Source of the DNA: Gemmatimonadaceae bacterium
GTDB taxonomy: Bacteria; Gemmatimonadota; Gemmatimonadetes; Gemmatimonadales; Gemmatimonadaceae
Direction: 5' to 3'
Length of the DNA stretch: 64,000 bases
Assembly (NCBI GenBank): GCA_025934775.1
Contig: JAICWO010000004.1
Coordinates: 178,724-242,723 of the forward strand
How positions within the stretch are numbered: the first letter of the stretch is position 1; each line of letters starts with the position of its first letter. Made by a program: the position numbers and the translations under genes. The notes beneath the pieces are model-generated. The model was given only the letters and a program-made list of their open reading frames with translations, searched no databases and was not told the origin of the DNA. This document shows positions 8,365-26,422 of the stretch, piece by piece.

Positions 8365-8429
8365 AGAGCGGGGACCTTAGACCGTGGACCGTAGTCCGTA
8401 GTTTCCACGGTCCACGGTCCACGCTCTAG
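8362..8429. repeat. Palindromic intergenic element at a convergent junction
   Basis: Arms built of repeated ACCGTGGACC / GGTCCACGGT units, closed by TAGAG...CTCTA at the base, cover almost the whole gap and overlap both stop codons. It would fold into one long imperfect hairpin in either transcript. No T-tract is present. It probably acts as a shared terminator or is a REP-like repeat. Confidence 0.5.
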
Positions 8430-9475
8430 ACTCCCACCATCAGCACCGAAGCAAACCGCTCCATCTCCTCGAGCTGCGGGCTGCTCTGCAGCAGCAGGAG
8501 ATCCAAGCCGGCTTCGGAAAACTCGTTCACGCGCTCCGCGACCTGCTCCGGCGTACCGACGAGCCCCGCGCGCAAACCGCGGTTCGACACCGAGTAGTCT
8601 TGGACGCTCACCTGCTGTTCCAGCTTGGTGTTCGCGATCCAATCGCGGTAGTTGTCGTAGCCGGCCGAGCCGATGCTCACGTTCGTGATGCGATCGATCT
8701 CGTCCTTCACCTCGCGCTCCGAGTCGCGCACGATCGTGTACGCGGCCATGCCGAAGTGCAGCGGCGGCAGATCGACGCCGAGCTCCTCGGACGCGCGCTC
8801 GCGCCGCGCCTTCATGTCCGCGACCTTGGGCGCGATCCGCTCCGGCGGATCCCCGTGCATGACGTACGCGTCGCACTGCCGCGAAATGAGCATCTTCGCC
8901 GCGTCCGATTCGCCGCCGGCGTAGATCGTCGGACGGGGGCGGCCCGGCCGCGAGACGGGCTTGGGCTCGAGGACGAGATCCTCGACGCGATACACCTTGC
9001 CCTCATAGTTCAGCTTCTTCTCGCGCCAGGCGCCGTCGACCACCTCGAGCCACTCTTTCGTGCGTGCATAGCGGTCGTCGTGCTCGTCGAACGCGGCACC
9101 GTACCGGCGCGCTTCGTCCTTCCACCACGCCGAGACGACGTTCAGCGCGAGCCGGCCGTTGGAGATGCGGTCGATGTTCGCCGCTTGCTTGGCGAGAATG
9201 GCCGGCGGATGGAACGACGGCCGCACGGCGACCATGAGCTCGAGCTTCTCCGTCACCGCGGCGAGCGCCGCGGCGGTGGACCATGCGTCGAGCGACGGCG
9301 CGTTGATCCCCTTGATGTCGTTGAGCAGCAGCTCGGCGATGAGCGTTATGTCATAGCCCAGCTCCTCGCTGCGCTGCGCGAGCCGGCGGACGTAGTCCCA
9401 CGACGCCGCCATCCCTTCCTCGTCGACGTTGCGCAGCCATCCGCCGAACACCGGAAGCCAGTAGCCGTACCTCAT
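8426..9475 (-). CDS. LLM-class flavin-dependent monooxygenase, SsuD/SfnG-like
   Basis: 349 residues of the luciferase-like (bacterial luciferase/alkanesulfonate monooxygenase) TIM-barrel family. The pattern MRYGYWLPVFGG, AKQAANIDRISNGRLALNVVSAWW, HDDRYARTKEWL and PTIYAGGES is that of the FMNH2-dependent alkanesulfonate and dimethylsulfone monooxygenases. These release sulfite or sulfinate from organosulfur compounds when sulfur is scarce. Close substrate assignment is not possible from sequence. The ATG at 9475 overlaps the TGA of the upstream ATP-grasp gene as ATGA, so the two are translationally coupled. No flavin reductase or ABC uptake genes lie beside it. Confidence 0.88.
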   Translation of the reverse strand: MRYGYWLPVFGGWLRNVDEEGMAASWDYVRRLAQRSEELGYDITLIAELLLNDIKGINAPSLDAWSTAAALAAVTEKLELMVAVRPSFHPPAILAKQAANIDRISNGRLALNVVSAWWKDEARRYGAAFDEHDDRYARTKEWLEVVDGAWREKKLNYEGKVYRVEDLVLEPKPVSRPGRPRPTIYAGGESDAAKMLISRQCDAYVMHGDPPERIAPKVADMKARRERASEELGVDLPPLHFGMAAYTIVRDSEREVKDEIDRITNVSIGSAGYDNYRDWIANTKLEQQVSVQDYSVSNRGLRAGLVGTPEQVAERVNEFSEAGLDLLLLQSSPQLEEMERFASVLMVGV

Positions 9476-10491
9476 GGCAGCGCCTCCGCGTGGACCGCGT
9501 GCGATGGCCGGCTCGCGCGGCCCGCCGTTGGAGTGCGCGGCTTGGCCGACGCACGCGCCTCGATGTAGTCGACGAACCGCGGCCACGGATCGAAGCCAAC
9601 CACGTTCACCGGATCGGCGACGAAGTTCGAGAGCGCGTTGACGTCGTAGAAGTAGTGCTTGCCGTCGCGATCGTCGACGAGGTACTCGATGCCGCCCACG
9701 TCGAGACCCGCGGCGCGGGAGATCGCCTCGACCTGCTCGACGATCGCGCGCGGCGGCTCGTAGCCTTCCACGCGAAGCCCCGTCTTGGGTGCGTCGACGG
9801 CGCACGCGCCGCGCACCAGCTCGATGCCGTTCGTGGTCTGACAGGCGTCGGCCGGGCAGAGGTCGAACGAGCCGACGGCCGGATACACCTTGATCGCATA
9901 GAGAAACTTGGCACCGAGCGTCTCGACCCGGACGATGTGGCCGTCGCGGAGCGGCGCCGACTCCTGCACGAGCGCGACGCCGTCGACGCCGAGCTCCACC
10001 TCGCCGCGCTCGACCGCGCCGGCGAGCGCCGCCTCGGATTCGTAGCGCACGATCCCGGCGCCGCTTCCGCCGATGTTCGCCTTCACGAGCACCGGATAGC
10101 GGAGATCGCGCGCCGCGTGGACGGCGAGCGCCGGGTTGTTGATCGCCCGGGCGCGCGGGAACGGAAGCCCGAGCTCGCGAAGCAGGTCGAGCTGCGACGC
10201 TTTCGACAATTCATATGAGTAAATTTTGGAGCCATTGACGACCGGCACGCCGATCCGCTCCAGGTGGCGCAGCCAGTGCAGCGTGAAGAAGGTCGACTGG
10301 CGATGCCCGCGAAGGTACGCCGACGGGCTCGCGCGGTTGACGACGACCGAGTACGCCGCGCTCTCGGCGGACGGGTCGTAGCTGAACGCGGACGCATCGA
10401 GGCGCACGTACGGCAGCTCGCGCCGCTCGAGCTCGGCGAAGAGCGGCTTGAACCAGTCGGGATGCTCGTGATAGACAGCGATCGGTGGCAT
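9472..10491 (-). CDS. ATP-grasp ligase (RimK-like) paired with the monooxygenase
   Basis: 339 residues from the ATG at 10491; a GTG at 10500 would add three. ATP-grasp landmarks are LSKASQLDLLRELGLPFPRARAI, VLVKANIGGSGAGIV (nucleotide Lys plus Gly loop), and the C-terminal GGIEYLVDDRDGKHYFYDVNALSNF with the acidic/Asn Mg-binding residues. The family makes amide or peptide bonds using ATP. Its stop overlaps the start of the SsuD-like monooxygenase, and the two products must act in the same process. The leader, 60 bp upstream, holds an intrinsic terminator preceded by a Cys/Met-rich mini-ORF, so expression is probably controlled by readthrough. The substrate is unknown. An AT-rich codon patch lies at 10199-10238. 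Confidence 0.85.
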   Translation of the reverse strand: MPPIAVYHEHPDWFKPLFAELERRELPYVRLDASAFSYDPSAESAAYSVVVNRASPSAYLRGHRQSTFFTLHWLRHLERIGVPVVNGSKIYSYELSKASQLDLLRELGLPFPRARAINNPALAVHAARDLRYPVLVKANIGGSGAGIVRYESEAALAGAVERGEVELGVDGVALVQESAPLRDGHIVRVETLGAKFLYAIKVYPAVGSFDLCPADACQTTNGIELVRGACAVDAPKTGLRVEGYEPPRAIVEQVEAISRAAGLDVGGIEYLVDDRDGKHYFYDVNALSNFVADPVNVVGFDPWPRFVDYIEARASAKPRTPTAGRASRPSHAVHAEALP

Positions 10492-10550
10492 GGTCGGCAC
10501 TGAGGTGAAGGGATCGCCTTCGCTCTGCCAATCCGGATCGCCGCGTCTCT

Positions 10551-10589
10551 GAAAACAAAAACGCTCCGACCCGGCGAGGGTCGGAGCGT
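10551..10589 (-). terminator. Strong intrinsic terminator upstream of the ATP-grasp gene
   Basis: A 12-bp perfect stem (10561-10572 with 10578-10589) with a 5-nt loop is followed on the minus strand by TTTTGTTTT (10552-10560). It lies 24 nt after the stop codon of the Cys-rich mini-ORF, 208 bp after the barrel gene, and 60 bp before the ATP-grasp start. This is the best-formed terminator in the window. Its position between a sulfur-amino-acid-rich leader ORF and the genes it precedes suggests attenuation. Confidence 0.85.
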
Positions 10590-10613
10590 AGGCCGCGTGT
10601 ACGAGTCGTGTCG

Positions 10614-10709
10614 TTACATGCGATCGCCCAGAGCCTCAGATGCCGGTTGGCACATGAGACAACACATGCACGAACAACAACACATGCAGGTGGTCTGGGC
10701 GGAGGTCAT
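10614..10709 (-). CDS. 31-residue Cys/Met-rich leader peptide or small peptide
   Basis: ATG at 10707-10709, TAA at 10614-10616. Residues 8-20 read CMCCCSCMCCLMC: 8 Cys and 3 Met in 13 positions, using both TGC and TGT. The rest is ordinary (MTSAQTT before; QPASEALGDRM after). An in-frame TGA two codons upstream fixes the start. No Shine-Dalgarno is seen, but TAACTT ends exactly 7 nt before the ATG, which fits a leaderless transcript. A terminator follows, then an ATP-grasp ligase and a sulfonate/sulfone-type monooxygenase. The best reading is a Cys/Met-responsive leader peptide. Alternatives are a metal-binding peptide, a peptide natural-product precursor, or a chance ORF in CA-rich DNA. Confidence 0.5.
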   Translation of the reverse strand: MTSAQTTCMCCCSCMCCLMCQPASEALGDRM

Positions 10710-10716
10710 GAATCAG

Positions 10717-10722
10717 AAGTTA
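10717..10722 (-). promoter_or_regulatory. Candidate -10 box for a leaderless transcript
   Basis: TAACTT on the minus strand fits TANNNT and ends 7 nt before the ATG of the Cys-rich mini-ORF, placing the transcription start at or next to the A of that ATG. No clear -35 box is seen. The same geometry (TATAAT plus 7 nt) occurs before fabI at 55248. Confidence 0.35.
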
Positions 10723-10796
10723 ACGACGGGATGAAGGGCGGCAAGGCCGCTCGTTGCGGTTCACCAAGTCTTTACGTGCACTCGGAGTTCCCGCGA

Positions 10797-13214
10797 TCAG
10801 AACCGCGAGTCCAGATACAGATCCACGCGCCACTGCTTCCGCGGGTACAGTCCGCGCGCGACGTCGAACCGAAACAGTCCGTCGAGGAACGACAGCCCCG
10901 CACCGACGCCGCTCATCGGACGCCCGACGTCGCTGATCTTCGAGCGATCGCCGACCCATCCGAGATCGCCAAAGATCGTGGGCCGCATGCCGATGTCCGA
11001 CGTGCCCAGCTCGAGGCGCGTCATCCAGAACGCGTTCCCGCTCTGCGTCGTGTCCGGGCTCTGCCCGCGAATCGTCTGCGAGCCGCCGAGATACCAACGG
11101 CGCTGCACCGGCAGCGCACCGACCGCCGTTCCACCGGCGAGCGTGATCGCGCCGGCGAGCGGCCCGAGTCCGTGCGACGCCGTGAGATCGAGCGCCGCGC
11201 GGCCGTACGACGAATCGCCGTACGCCGCTTCGATGCGCGTATCGGTGAGCAGCCGGAATCCGTGCGGATCCAGTCCGTACTGGCGCGTGATGCGCGTCCC
11301 CGCGCCGGCGTAGACGCCGCGCGTCGCGACGAGATTCGGCGGAAAATCGGCGCCGTTCACCGCGAAGCTGGTGTTCACGCGCGCGGTGCGCTGCTGCTCC
11401 GCGAACACGCGCCAGCTGACGTCGGCACCCGCATCGAACGAGGGCTGGACTTCCCCGCCAAGCTCCGCGCCGCTCGCGCGATAATAGAAGCCCTCGTCGC
11501 GCCCGAACATGAGCGCGGAGAACGATGAGCCGAAGCTCAACGGCCGTCCCCAGTCGCTCGCCGAGACCAGATGATTGTACCCGCTCACGTGCACCGACTT
11601 CGAGAGATTCGTGCGCGTGACCGTGAGCTCCACGTTCGGCTCGCGGTCCGCGAATCCAAACCGGCCCAGCGCGAGCGCGTCGTAGCCGCCGCCGAGCTGC
11701 TCGTCGGCGGAGATCCCGGCCGAGAAGCCCTCGACGCGGTTGTAGCGCATGAGCGATGGACCGTACATGATCTTTGGCGGCGCCAGCATCGAGAGCCGGA
11801 GCTCGAGCGGCGCCTGCGCCGTGAGCGCGAGCGCTTGCTGCTTCAGCGCCTCGAGCTCCTTGGCATCGAACATCTGGTCGTCGGGGCCGTAGATCGACTT
11901 CGGCAGATCGGGCGAGTTCTCGAGCTTGGCTTCGTCACACGGAATGCGCACGCCAACCGGAATGCGTCCGTCGAACCGGTAGCGCTGCACGACGTAGAAG
12001 TCGGACGTGTCGCAGACCGAGCTCATGGCGTGTCGTTTCGCGAGCGCCGAGTCGCGCGCCTTTCGATCCATCTTATCGAGCGAATCGGTCCACGCCTTCC
12101 GCTCGGCGCGGCGCGCGGCTCGCACCGAGTCCACCCATTTCTCCTGCTCGTCGGCGGAGAGCGTGTCGGGCACTTCCTCGGCGGGCTTTCCGGCGACGAC
12201 GATCGTTGGGAGCGTGTCGCGGCCGTTCACGCTGTTGTACGAGAAGCTCTCCTCGAACTTGAACGGCACGTGGATGAATCCGACCTGGGCGTTGCCTTCG
12301 GCGGATCGGACGGTCGGCAGCCAGAAGCGGCCCTCGAACAAGCCGTATTCGATGGCGATCGCCGAGATCTCGCCCTGCATGGGCCGGAACACGGCTTTGA
12401 CCCAGCCCGGCGGGGGATCGCCGTCGTGGTCGCTGGTGTCGGATGCGGTCGCGTCCCAGACGTCGACGGGAATCGACAACCGGTACGCCGCGCGCACGAG
12501 CTGTCCCGTGGTCGCGTCGAACCAGAACGAGCCGACACAGAGATTCCACTTCGGCTGGCGGGGACGAATCTTTAATTCACGAAGTCTAATTACGCGCTTG
12601 TCGGGCAGGCGGAGGGTGAGCGAGTCCCCGGTCTGGTACGTGTAGTACGCCTCGGCGCCTTCGGCGAGCGGATGCACGATATCGGTCTCGTCGACGCGCG
12701 CCTTGACCGTGTTGCCGGCGATCCAGAGCGGCTCGTAGCCCGGGTAGTACGGGAGCGGCGCCGAGAGATCGTCGTCGTCCATCTCGTCGCGATTCTCCTG
12801 CTTCTCGTCGCTCCGGTCCGCGACCGGGATGGCCGTGCGGGCGCCGGTCACCTGGACCCATGCGCCCACGCCGCGCTGCCAGCGCACGCGGCCGGCCGCC
12901 TCGTGGCGATAGAGCAGCCGGTCGCCGCCGATGCGACCGAAACCCATGCCGACCGAGATGCGATTGTACGACTTGGCGTCGTAGCCGGTGAGCGCGGAGT
13001 CCTGGCGGAGCCGCGCGACGCGCGCGCGCATCAACAGCGTGCGCGCCGTGCTGTCCTTGAAGGCGGTGGCGAGCAGCTCGGGCGTGACCGGGCGCCGCAC
13101 CGCGTGATGGACGTGCTTGGTCGTCGTGTCCTGCGCCGGCGCGCTGGTTTGGACGTGGACGTGCACCTTGGCCTGGAAATTCATCGCCAGAGCGGCGGTC
13201 AGGAGGAGCAGCAT
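10797..13214 (-). CDS. Outer-membrane beta-barrel protein with Omp85-like C-terminus
   Basis: 805 residues from the ATG at 13214, beginning with a short signal peptide. The N-terminal half (residues about 30-480) is periplasmic looking, with an acidic segment (DEMDDDDL) and a charged helical insert rich in Arg/Lys/Asp (DSLDKMDRKARDSALAKRH). The C-terminal 300 residues show alternating aromatic beta strands, IRGQ near residue 721 at the place of the Omp85 VRGF/Y motif, and a terminal SRF ending in an aromatic residue as BAM substrates do. Possible roles are translocation or assembly across the outer membrane. It is divergent from the ABC exporter. No partner protein is seen nearby. An AT-rich codon patch lies at 12566-12594. 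Confidence 0.8.
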   Translation of the reverse strand: MLLLLTAALAMNFQAKVHVHVQTSAPAQDTTTKHVHHAVRRPVTPELLATAFKDSTARTLLMRARVARLRQDSALTGYDAKSYNRISVGMGFGRIGGDRLLYRHEAAGRVRWQRGVGAWVQVTGARTAIPVADRSDEKQENRDEMDDDDLSAPLPYYPGYEPLWIAGNTVKARVDETDIVHPLAEGAEAYYTYQTGDSLTLRLPDKRVIRLRELKIRPRQPKWNLCVGSFWFDATTGQLVRAAYRLSIPVDVWDATASDTSDHDGDPPPGWVKAVFRPMQGEISAIAIEYGLFEGRFWLPTVRSAEGNAQVGFIHVPFKFEESFSYNSVNGRDTLPTIVVAGKPAEEVPDTLSADEQEKWVDSVRAARRAERKAWTDSLDKMDRKARDSALAKRHAMSSVCDTSDFYVVQRYRFDGRIPVGVRIPCDEAKLENSPDLPKSIYGPDDQMFDAKELEALKQQALALTAQAPLELRLSMLAPPKIMYGPSLMRYNRVEGFSAGISADEQLGGGYDALALGRFGFADREPNVELTVTRTNLSKSVHVSGYNHLVSASDWGRPLSFGSSFSALMFGRDEGFYYRASGAELGGEVQPSFDAGADVSWRVFAEQQRTARVNTSFAVNGADFPPNLVATRGVYAGAGTRITRQYGLDPHGFRLLTDTRIEAAYGDSSYGRAALDLTASHGLGPLAGAITLAGGTAVGALPVQRRWYLGGSQTIRGQSPDTTQSGNAFWMTRLELGTSDIGMRPTIFGDLGWVGDRSKISDVGRPMSGVGAGLSFLDGLFRFDVARGLYPRKQWRVDLYLDSRF

Positions 13215-23579: not shown

Positions 23580-24719
23580 TTAGTTGTTCCGCTCCGTGTC
23601 CGCCGCGACGCCGCTCACCTTCACCGGCGTCTTCTCGGAGATGCCGCGCGCCGCGCCGAGCAGGATCGTGTCTCCCGGCGCGATGCCGCTGCGAATCTCC
23701 ACGGTCTCGCTCGCGGCGTCGCGAATCCCCAACACCACGTCCGCCTTCTGCACGATGCCGTTCTTGAGCCGCATGACGAACGGCCGCAACCCGCGCTCGT
23801 CCACCGCGGCGATCGGCACCACGGGCGCCGTGCGGACTTCGCTCGCCACGTTGCCATCCGCGAACAGTCCGCCCACCAGCACGCCGTTCTCGTTCGGCAG
23901 CGACACGATGATCCGCACCTGGCGCGTCGCCGGATCGGCGATCGGGTTGATCCGCGTGACGTGTCCCGTGAACTGGCGATTGGGATAGCCGTTCACCGTG
24001 AAGTCCACCGGCACGCCCACACGCACCGCCGAGAGCTGGTCCGCCGGCACCGACGCCTCGAGCCGCATCGTCGACGGATTCACGATCGTGTAAAGCGCCG
24101 CGCCCGGCTGCACCACGTCGCCCGCGCTCACTTGCCGTGCGCTCACGATTCCCGAGAACGGAGACGCGATCGTCGCCTTGTCGAGCTGCTTGCGCGCGTT
24201 CGTGAGCTGCGCCTGCGCGTTCGCGAGCTGCGCCTGCGCCGCCGAGTACTGGTTGCGCGTGAGCTCGAGATCGCGCTCCGCGATGGCGCCGGCTTTGAGC
24301 AATGTCTCATTGCGGTCGACCTCGCGCTTGTTCACGTCCACCGTGTTCTGCGCCGTCGTCACCGCCGCGCGCGCCGAGAGCTCCGTTTCGCGCAGCGCCG
24401 CGTCGTCGATGCGCGCCAGCACCTGCCCCTTGTTCACGCGCTGCCCCTGCTCGGCGAACGTCTGGAGCACCGGACCGCCGACTTCCGCGCGCACCGTCGC
24501 CTGCTCTTCGGGCTGCAGCGTTCCTGAGATCGCCGGCCCCGAGCGGATCTGCTGCGACTTCACGACCGCGATGTTCTCCGGCCCGACGACCATCCCGGCC
24601 GGCCCCGTGGATCCGGTGGTCGTGTTGTCTTTCTTGCACGCCGCGAACGTCGCGGCGGCCAGTAAAACCGCGGCCGCGGTCAGGCGGCGAGTGCGAGTGT
24701 TCGTCCCTGCCCGGCTCAT
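23580..24719 (-). CDS. RND efflux periplasmic adaptor (membrane fusion) lipoprotein
   Basis: 379 residues from the ATG at 24719, which overlaps the TolC stop as ATGA. The signal peptide ends in TFAACKK, a lipoprotein Cys near residue 21. The barrel-sandwich half (TVRAEVGGPVLQTFAEQGQRVNKGQVLARID), a coiled-coil hairpin (AQAQLANAQAQLTNARKQL), the second lipoyl half (PFSGIVSARQVSAGDVVQPG) and beta-barrel/membrane-proximal domains follow in the normal MexA/AcrA order. It links the pump to the outer-membrane channel. Confidence 0.94.
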   Translation of the reverse strand: MSRAGTNTRTRRLTAAAVLLAAATFAACKKDNTTTGSTGPAGMVVGPENIAVVKSQQIRSGPAISGTLQPEEQATVRAEVGGPVLQTFAEQGQRVNKGQVLARIDDAALRETELSARAAVTTAQNTVDVNKREVDRNETLLKAGAIAERDLELTRNQYSAAQAQLANAQAQLTNARKQLDKATIASPFSGIVSARQVSAGDVVQPGAALYTIVNPSTMRLEASVPADQLSAVRVGVPVDFTVNGYPNRQFTGHVTRINPIADPATRQVRIIVSLPNENGVLVGGLFADGNVASEVRTAPVVPIAAVDERGLRPFVMRLKNGIVQKADVVLGIRDAASETVEIRSGIAPGDTILLGAARGISEKTPVKVSGVAADTERNN

Positions 24720-26422
24720 GGTTGAATGCTCCCGGTGGTGCCCGCCGAACCGCCGGCGGTTGGTGAGGTGGTCGCCGAACGCTGCGGCGTCTGACTCTGC
24801 GTCTGCTGTTGCTGCTGCTGCGACTGCTGCTGCGTGGCGCCGGCCGCACCGCCCGTCGCGCTCGCGGTGGTGCCGGTCGTCGCTTGCAGCGGCAGATCGC
24901 GCAGCAGCGCGAGCCGCACGCGCGCGACGGCGAGATTCCGCGCCGCCTGCGCGCGGTTGGCGAGCGCCTGCTCGAGCAGGAGCCGCGACTGCGTGAGATC
25001 CGTCTGCGTCGATATGCCTTCGCGATAGCGCACCTGATCGATCGCGTACGCTTGCTGCGCCTGATCCGCCGTGCCCCGGCTCGCCTCCCACGTCGACTGC
25101 GCTTCCTCCAGCGCGTTCAATGCGACGCGCGTGTCGAGCGCGGCGAACTGGCGCGTCTGCTCGCGCTGCGCGCGCGCCTGCTGGAGGCCTGCCTGCGCGA
25201 TCAGCTCGTCCCCTTTGATGCGGCCGCCGTCGAGCAGTGGAAAGCTCGTCGACACGCCGACGGTCCAGTTGTTCACGCCGTTGTTGAGACTCGGGAACAC
25301 CGCCGATGGGAAGTACAGCCGCTGGTAGTTCGACACGAGCGCGAACTGTGGAATGCGCTCCGCGCGCGCGATCGTCACCTGCGCTTGCGCGGCGCGCACG
25401 TTCTCGTCCAGCTCCCGCACCGGCGCGCGGTCGGCCGCGAGCGTGTCCGGCGGCGGCGCGTTCACCGCGATCGCCGGCAGCGCCGGCCCGTTCGCCTGCT
25501 CGATGCCGGTCGTGAGCCGAAGCGAATCGTCGAGCGACACGTTGAGGAGCTGCTTCAATCGCAGGTACGCCACCTGCCGGTTCGCGCGCGCTTGAATCGC
25601 AACGGGCAACTGGTTGTCGTGCGTCACCTGCGCGCGGAGCAGATCGTACTGCGACGCATTGCCGACCTGCCGGGCCACGCGCGTCTGCGCGAGTACCGCT
25701 TCCGTCTCGGCGACCGACGAATCGGCGATCGAGACGAGTTGGTCCGCGAGCGCCGCGTCGTAGTACGCCGAGGTCACGTCGAGCGAGACCTGCGCGCTCT
25801 GCGCGGCGACCTCGATGTTCGCCGAGCGGAGCTGTGCGTCGGCGGCCCGGTTCTGCGCCGTGACGCGGCCCGCCGTCCACAGGTTCTGCGAGAAGTTGAG
25901 CCCGAGCGCCCACTGATTCGTCGCGCCAAAGCTCGTCTTGCTCAGATCGAACCCGCCGGCGGCCGACGGACAGGTCGCCGCCTGCGCGAGCGCCGCCGCG
26001 CGCTCCTGCGGCGTGGCGTTGTCGGGGATGAACGGCGTGCAGAGCGACTTGGACGCGACGGGCTGCGGCGCCGTGTCCGCGGGTGCCGAGCTCGCGAAGC
26101 TCGAGAACTGCGACTTTAGCGTTTTCGTATAGCCCGCGGTGCCGTTGAGCTGCGGCAGGTACTGGCTGCGCGCCTGATACCGCCCGCCCGTGGCGCGCGT
26201 GACGCCCGAGCGCGCGATCTCGATCGTCTGGCTCTGCGTCTGCGCCATGCGCAGCGCGTCGTCGAGCGACAGCGTGAGCGTCGCGGGCGCGGAGCGCGCT
26301 CCGGTGCGCTGCTGCGCACCGGCGGCGCCCGCGGCGAGCGTCGCGAGCATCACACTCGCCGCGAGGCCGCGAACGCTCCGACTGGGAGCTGATGTCATGA
26401 TGGTGATATCGGTGAAAGTCAT
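24716..26422 (-). CDS. TolC/OprM-like outer-membrane efflux channel
   Basis: 568 residues from the ATG at 26422; an ATG at 26398 gives a shorter signal peptide n-region. Signal peptide cleavage is likely at GAAGAQ. Two outer-membrane-factor repeats with long helices are visible (LSLDDALRMAQTQSQTIEIARSG and the later GRIKGDELIAQAGLQQARAQREQTRQFAAL). Unusually, the protein ends in a low-complexity Gln/Ser/Thr tail with QQQSQQQQQQTQSQTPQ some 25-40 residues from the end, encoded by CAG/CAA repeats. The gene starts 8 bp after tetR and ends overlapping the adaptor start. Confidence 0.93.
   Translation of the reverse strand: MTFTDITIMTSAPSRSVRGLAASVMLATLAAGAAGAQQRTGARSAPATLTLSLDDALRMAQTQSQTIEIARSGVTRATGGRYQARSQYLPQLNGTAGYTKTLKSQFSSFASSAPADTAPQPVASKSLCTPFIPDNATPQERAAALAQAATCPSAAGGFDLSKTSFGATNQWALGLNFSQNLWTAGRVTAQNRAADAQLRSANIEVAAQSAQVSLDVTSAYYDAALADQLVSIADSSVAETEAVLAQTRVARQVGNASQYDLLRAQVTHDNQLPVAIQARANRQVAYLRLKQLLNVSLDDSLRLTTGIEQANGPALPAIAVNAPPPDTLAADRAPVRELDENVRAAQAQVTIARAERIPQFALVSNYQRLYFPSAVFPSLNNGVNNWTVGVSTSFPLLDGGRIKGDELIAQAGLQQARAQREQTRQFAALDTRVALNALEEAQSTWEASRGTADQAQQAYAIDQVRYREGISTQTDLTQSRLLLEQALANRAQAARNLAVARVRLALLRDLPLQATTGTTASATGGAAGATQQQSQQQQQQTQSQTPQRSATTSPTAGGSAGTTGSIQP

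Follow-up and report, generated by a model that had tools for sequence, protein, structure and literature searches.

Why should a short open reading frame (ORF) crowded with cysteine and methionine codons, followed by a terminator, stand ahead of genes for an ATP-grasp ligase and a luciferase-like (LLM) monooxygenase? The question arises at one locus in a 64,000-nucleotide stretch of Gemmatimonadaceae DNA, hereafter the window. A preliminary description of this DNA proposed that ribosomes stalling at the Cys/Met codons control transcription of the genes by attenuation. Comparative evidence, in the absence of expression or ribosome data, supports that proposal, and we consider it likely that the leader attenuates transcription by way of the ribosome, in response to how much charged tRNA-Cys and tRNA-Met is available.

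The leader ORF, its promoter and its relatives

All parts of the locus lie on the minus strand (Table 1). The mini-ORF was found as described earlier, with residues 8-20 reading CMCCCSCMCCLMC. Its 13-codon core has Cys or Met at 11 of 13 positions, in a window whose genes encode 0.5% Cys and 2.0% Met. Across all six frames of the 64 kb, this core is the richest 13-codon Cys+Met stretch and the sole Cys+Met-rich stretch that contains Met. A stop-free stretch on the plus strand (24795-24848; CVCCCCCCDCCCV) lies inside a long ORF of the minus strand (23580-25913) and probably represents an antisense frame rather than a leader. Elsewhere in the same genome, none of the 30 out of 40 other matches to TGYTGYTGYNNNTGY that we examined fell within a short, Cys-rich ORF of this kind accompanied by a T-tailed terminator.

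Table 1. Features of the leader and the operon, in window coordinates
Feature	Sequence	Position	Strand	Remarks
-35-like element	TTGCCG	10739..10744	minus	Read from sequence; first T to start codon, 35 nt
-10-like element	TAACTT	10717..10722	minus	Read from sequence; 7 nt before ATG
Leader mini-ORF	MTSAQTTCMCCCSCMCCLMCQPASEALGDRM	10614..10709	minus	31 codons, 8 Cys and 4 internal Met
Region 1 (codons 3-6)	CGCCCAGA	10694..10701	minus	8-nt perfect inverted repeat; predicted to pair with region 2 in the absence of a ribosome
Internal (pause-type) hairpin, last Cys codons	GTCTCATGTGCCAACCGGCATCTGAGGC	10633..10660	minus	Fold; compensatory changes in relatives
Region 2 (antiterminator/decoy)	GGCTCTGGGCG	10625..10635	minus	Duplex with terminator 5' arm beats shuffles, p=0.036
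Region 3 (terminator 5' arm)	ACGCTCCGACCC	10578..10589	minus
Region 4 (terminator 3' arm)	GGGTCGGAGCGT	10561..10572	minus	Helix covariation
T-tract	TTTTGTTTT	10552..10560	minus
ATP-grasp ligase gene (RimK/LysX-like)		9472..10491	minus	First gene of operon
LLM monooxygenase gene		8426..9475	minus	Overlaps ATP-grasp stop; nearest SfnG, then SsuD models

The -10-like TAACTT had already been noted at its place ahead of the ATG; to it we add the -35-like TTGCCG, separated from it by a spacer of 16 nt. Relatives carry TTGACA or TTGACG as the -35 box and TACTAT or TACTTT, 6-7 nt ahead of the start codon, as the -10 element. In 27 of 33 leaders, the first base of a TTGAC/TTGCC-type -35 box lies 34-38 nt upstream of the start codon, and a 16-18 nt spacer together with a -10 element ending 6-7 nt before the ATG was seen in the window and in L004, L005, L019, L061, L062 and L066. 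With the distance from -35 box to start codon fixed and the -10 element so placed, the transcript is expected to start on the start codon itself or beside it. The leader mRNA is therefore probably leaderless, as had been guessed before; this is an inference from the constant promoter spacing, as no start site has been mapped.

To see what is retained in relatives, we collected orthologous ATP-grasp genes from them and from named genomes and removed duplicates. A Cys/Met-rich mini-ORF was present at about -260 to -80 in 33 distinct orthologous loci, nearly all of them followed by a T-tailed terminator; in 31 loci the leader stands alone and in two it is in tandem with a SAM-II riboswitch. Cys makes up 12.7% of the leader residues and Cys+Met 24%, figures that are partly selected, because the ORFs were hand-picked among candidates with Cys/Met runs. 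TGT accounts for 43% of Cys codons in the leaders (51/119) and for 20% in the window genes (9/45). The peptides themselves are strongly divergent, and in genus g14 the codon positions vary about equally. To judge from this comparison, what is conserved is the kind of codon and not the protein. In 59 genomes, a covariance model built from the leaders (R1) gave strong matches only at the ATP-grasp/LLM operon.

The proteins encoded by the operon are incompletely matched to known families. The ATP-grasp protein is RimK/LysX-like, below the curated cut-offs of those families, and for the LLM monooxygenase the closest models are SfnG (dimethylsulfone monooxygenase) and SsuD, again under the cut-off, with its substrate unknown. 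In Zavarzinella (L101:1227-2894), a gamma-glutamyltranspeptidase gene lies directly upstream of the gene pair, which gives a hint of gamma-glutamyl or thiol chemistry.

Terminator, antiterminator and ribosome position

The 12-bp perfect terminator reported 24 nt past the ORF stop was confirmed at 10589-10561 (minus), with 12 perfect pairs, a loop of 5 and a predicted energy of -24.6 kcal/mol. The ATP-grasp ATG lies 69 nt downstream of its stem, and a simple scan between terminator and gene found no promoter; a promoter of the gene's own would have counted against attenuation. The preliminary description could not see an antiterminator. One is present: region 2, formed by the last codons of the ORF, is a near-copy of the terminator 3' arm (GGCTCTGGGCG versus GGGTCGGAGCG), and because of this resemblance it can pair with the terminator 5' arm. 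The duplex of this decoy with the 5' arm is stronger than dinucleotide shuffles (p<0.05) in 19 of 33 loci.

Strict column-wise counts of antiterminator pairs across genera had to be abandoned because of indels. We substituted a cross-locus permutation test, which tried every decoy against the arms from each of the other loci, with double centring and 12 clade groups. Decoys paired better with arms of their own clade by about 4 kcal/mol, and none of 20,000 permutations did as well (p=5e-5). Since the terminator arms are very different between clades, the match of decoy and 5' arm amounts to covariation between partners that lie far apart. The internal hairpin and the terminator helix were paired in 95.8% of cells, with double changes in 41 cells; no shuffle out of 500 reached as high a value for either, and slid controls were paired in at most 47%. 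One column pair of the internal hairpin, for example, reads CG in eight relatives, GC in six and UA in three. The T-tracts of the terminators are weak in genus g14.

These observations bear on whether the mini-ORF is merely a chance Cys-rich frame before the ordinary terminator of the upstream gene. Since that gene, on the same strand, has its end at 10797, some terminator is expected there, and a lone leader would be weak evidence; yet the recurrence in 33 loci, the composition, the promoter spacing and the covariation contradict a chance frame, to which we give almost no credence.

We propose that attenuation joins this anatomy, its conservation, the covariation and the behaviour of the folds, all of which were observed, to stalling, termination and readthrough in the cell, which are inferred, as there are no expression data. 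Transcription would yield a leaderless mRNA whose 5' end lies on or beside the mini-ORF's ATG. When Cys or Met is short, the ribosome would stall at codons 8-20, breaking region 1 and leaving region 2 free; region 2 could then capture the 5' arm of the terminator while the 3' arm is still to be made, so that no terminator forms and the ATP-grasp/LLM operon is transcribed. When both amino acids are ample, the ribosome would reach the stop codon and cover region 2, and the terminator would form. Without translation, region 1 would sequester region 2, again allowing the terminator to form.

To model ribosome position, we folded transcripts ending at the terminator loop, masking the RNA that the ribosome covers and all RNA 5' of it. 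In the window, the predicted antiterminator occupancy was 0.01 without a ribosome, 0.49-0.74 with a ribosome at any Cys/Met codon between 8 and 20, and 0.03 with a ribosome at the stop codon. Means over the 33 loci were 0.41, 0.66 and 0.02 for no ribosome, Cys/Met stall and stop, respectively, with the caveat that the masking itself partly causes the low occupancy at the stop codon. Shuffled leaders averaged 0.41, compared with 0.69 observed. Locus by locus, the fold differed from shuffles at p<=0.05 in 17 of 33 (window, p=0.06), and the antiterminator fold did not outdo shuffles in the g5-type leaders or in a few others. The no-ribosome state of the window is kept by pairing of region 1 (10701-10694) with region 2. 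We rejected this pairing as a general rule, as it reached p<0.05 in only 8 of 33 leaders, although it is strong in the window. In the folds the complete terminator always wins at equilibrium, and readthrough would therefore need the kinetics of co-transcriptional folding. Classical attenuators likewise depend on folding during transcription.

SAM riboswitches and Met-only leaders

In 31 orthologous operons there is no mini-ORF; a SAM-II RNA is found instead, usually followed by its own terminator. Eight of these matched Rfam SAM_alpha (SAM-II, RF00521) above the gathering score (L009, L010, L041, L046, L050, L053, L056 and L057), as did the SAM-II of the tandem locus L014. The remaining SAM-II loci were assigned by a shared core sequence, some of them just under the cut-off (G006). 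At L014 and L016, SAM-II and a terminator precede a Cys/Met leader and a second terminator. Rfam gave no match on the window, and hence no SAM-II (RF00521) here; on 20 orthologues, nearly all from outside Gemmatimonadota, it gave one riboswitch only, a SAM-I ahead of the same ATP-grasp/LLM gene pair in Rufibacter (L094). In the ATP-grasp tree, leader loci and SAM-II loci alternate between clades. An SsuE/MsuE-like FMN reductase gene stands between SAM-II and the ATP-grasp and LLM genes at L012.

Three arrangements near the ATP-grasp gene are recorded here as side observations. L010 and L056 have an extra conserved stretch of about 150 nt (TGTAACNGTCCTCCGA...GTTTCGTGTCTCGTAATNACGAA) between SAM-II and the ATP-grasp gene, of unknown function. 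L131 (G006 contig C13:14227-14583) carries a divergent SAM-II pair, one directed toward the ATP-grasp gene and the other away from it. Upstream of the ATP-grasp gene at L198, MCMLHWHRTLTAQAM continues in frame as far as the start of that gene and resembles a leader with its terminator deleted.

Loss of the mini-ORF or of its Cys/Met codons in relatives had been named as a result that would refute attenuation. Relatives instead keep the mini-ORF or swap it for a SAM riboswitch, whose ligand derives from methionine, and a minority has neither: in the Gemmatimonadota clade, about 19 of 82 orthologues were scored as lacking both, at least one of which (L190) actually has a leader. The sulfur link suggested earlier is supported by SAM-II or SAM-I at orthologous operons and by the FMN reductase gene in one of them. 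These riboswitches, the SfnG/SsuD-like LLM and its SsuE-like partner at L012 all point to sulfur metabolism. On this comparative evidence, which is independent of the leader, the operon is tied to methionine/SAM status; its role in scavenging organosulfur compounds is inferred.

The same exchange weakens two other readings raised in the preliminary description, a peptide precursor and a metal-binding peptide, because the peptides diverge and about half of the orthologous operons are peptide-free. Some ATP-grasp enzymes modify ribosomal peptides, and the ATP-grasp protein here shows a very weak similarity to peptide-modifying maturases, so the ORF could in principle encode a precursor that this protein and the flavoenzyme modify. 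We regard this as very improbable: 31 of the orthologous operons lack the peptide and carry SAM-II, the sequence of the peptide is not conserved, with codon positions changing about equally in genus g14, and a terminator separates the ORF from the enzymes. That the peptide senses metal or redox state through Cys, Met and His ligands, for instance by stalling upon copper binding, draws on its CMCCC-type runs and on His-rich variants such as RCHMCHWHHMPMMGHG in L017. However, the operon has no metal genes, SAM riboswitches sit at the same operon in relatives, the spacing and order of Cys and Met are not conserved, and the leaders at metX/hom described below have Met only and no Cys; we find this reading improbable as well.

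Attenuation at methionine codons alone may operate at other genes. The weaker R1 matches that we inspected were mostly ordinary terminators, and two adjoined SAM-II elements; reading these two, and the SAM-II at metX in the window's own genome, revealed Met-only leaders at metX/hom. In the own genome (G000 contig C20, L180:2200-2353), SAM-II and a terminator are followed, before metX, by the Met-only leader MIISMRRMQMRMSMAAASLARGSDGRHRLRA and a second terminator; metH in this genome has SAM-II alone. G004 has MRTIMSMTMRMMRMMRMTMRMTMRMTMRMTTASLSRESHGGRRMRG after SAM-II, and two further Met-only leaders follow SAM-II in G002 and G018. These three leaders of relatives sit at L262, L271 and L261; the one in G018 stands at a gene that is hom-like by appearance, without a family-library scan, with metX downstream. 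All four lack Cys. With a stall at a Met in the run, predicted antiterminator occupancy was 0.54-0.85, and with a ribosome at the stop it was 0.00-0.05; against shuffles, the p values were 0.015, 0.065, 0.045 and 0.26. In these models the Met-only leaders share the switching geometry of the Cys/Met leader; only four are known, from two genera.

On balance, we lean towards the view that Gemmatimonadaceae have a two-input sulfur regulon, in which SAM-II senses SAM and ribosome-mediated leaders sense charged tRNA. The two devices would be interchangeable and stackable on one operon, and the leader code would be matched to the pathway, Met-only at metX/hom and Cys+Met for organosulfur scavenging. 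The leader itself offers a proposed sulfur amino-acid attenuator with every working part identifiable from its sequence, and it connects the supply of methionine and cysteine to a pair of ATP-grasp and LLM enzymes that are uncharacterised. In the course of evolution the operon has moved between a riboswitch that senses a metabolite and a leader that would sense tRNA charge, with tandem loci as intermediates, an exchange that makes the mutual replacement of RNA regulators directly testable.

Relation to known attenuators and riboswitches

In the open-access papers searched, we found no methionine-coded leader attenuator and no leader-peptide attenuator from Gemmatimonadota; a methionine-coded attenuator would thus, if the two-input view is correct, be of a kind absent from that literature. 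Canestrari 2020, known to us by citation only, is reportedly the primary paper on mycobacterial translation attenuation. Mycobacterial mini-ORFs with Cys runs were predicted upstream of cys operons without conserved terminators (PMC1262725), were seen as leaderless translated ORFs (Shell 2015, PMC4633059) and are cited as translation attenuation (PMC13236596). They resemble the present leader, itself only probably leaderless, as short ORFs with a Cys run before sulfur genes, and they lend some weight to a mechanism acting through translation or Rho, in which stalling in the mini-ORF would alter access to the downstream gene or of Rho and the hairpin would be secondary. We think this unlikely here, although less so than the other alternatives: nearly all leaders come with a strong terminator that has a T-tail, the 5' arm of this terminator co-varies with the decoy in the ORF, and SAM-II with its own terminator replaces the leader at the same site. 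The promoter-to-start spacing fits the leaderless start of the mycobacterial family (no transcription start has been mapped), but the family's lack of a conserved intrinsic terminator is not met, and the conserved terminator/antiterminator pair and the Met codons set our leader apart.

In Rhodobacterales, uORFC-8-2 before cysS is a Cys-codon uORF inside a stem, with an intrinsic terminator, for which attenuation has been proposed; it has two Cys codons, controls cysteinyl-tRNA synthetase, belongs to another phylum and has no Met and no noted link to SAM riboswitches (PMC8632094). Its arrangement before cysS with tandem Cys codons 14-15 is not met here, where the first gene encodes an ATP-grasp ligase. 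The SAM-II riboswitch (RF00521) shares with the leader its place, its operon, a terminator of its own and the pathway signal, but lacks an ORF and responds to SAM itself. Neither leader peptide nor uORF occurs as a term in a review of tandem riboswitches (PMC9481103).

The closest likeness of the leader is to the trp, his and leu leader-peptide attenuators, in which a short ORF carries codons for the regulated amino acid, antiterminator and intrinsic terminator are mutually exclusive, and ribosome position is the switch. Three properties expected of an attenuator are met: a Cys/Met-rich leader ORF in 33 loci (translation itself not shown), an intrinsic terminator between this ORF and the first gene, and a ribosome-dependent antiterminator that excludes the terminator, by computation and not by measurement. 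Unlike the trp, his and leu systems, this leader would sense Cys and Met together, is probably leaderless, belongs to Gemmatimonadota and a putative organosulfur operon, and is interchangeable, sometimes in tandem, with SAM-II. Ribosome-mediated attenuation and Cys-coded attenuation are already known; what appears to be new is the phylum, the joint use of Cys and Met codons, the way the leader trades places or stacks with SAM-II, and the Met-only sister leaders. As far as can be read from the DNA alone, the leader belongs to neither the mycobacterial nor the Rhodobacterales family and works like a classical ribosome-mediated attenuator.
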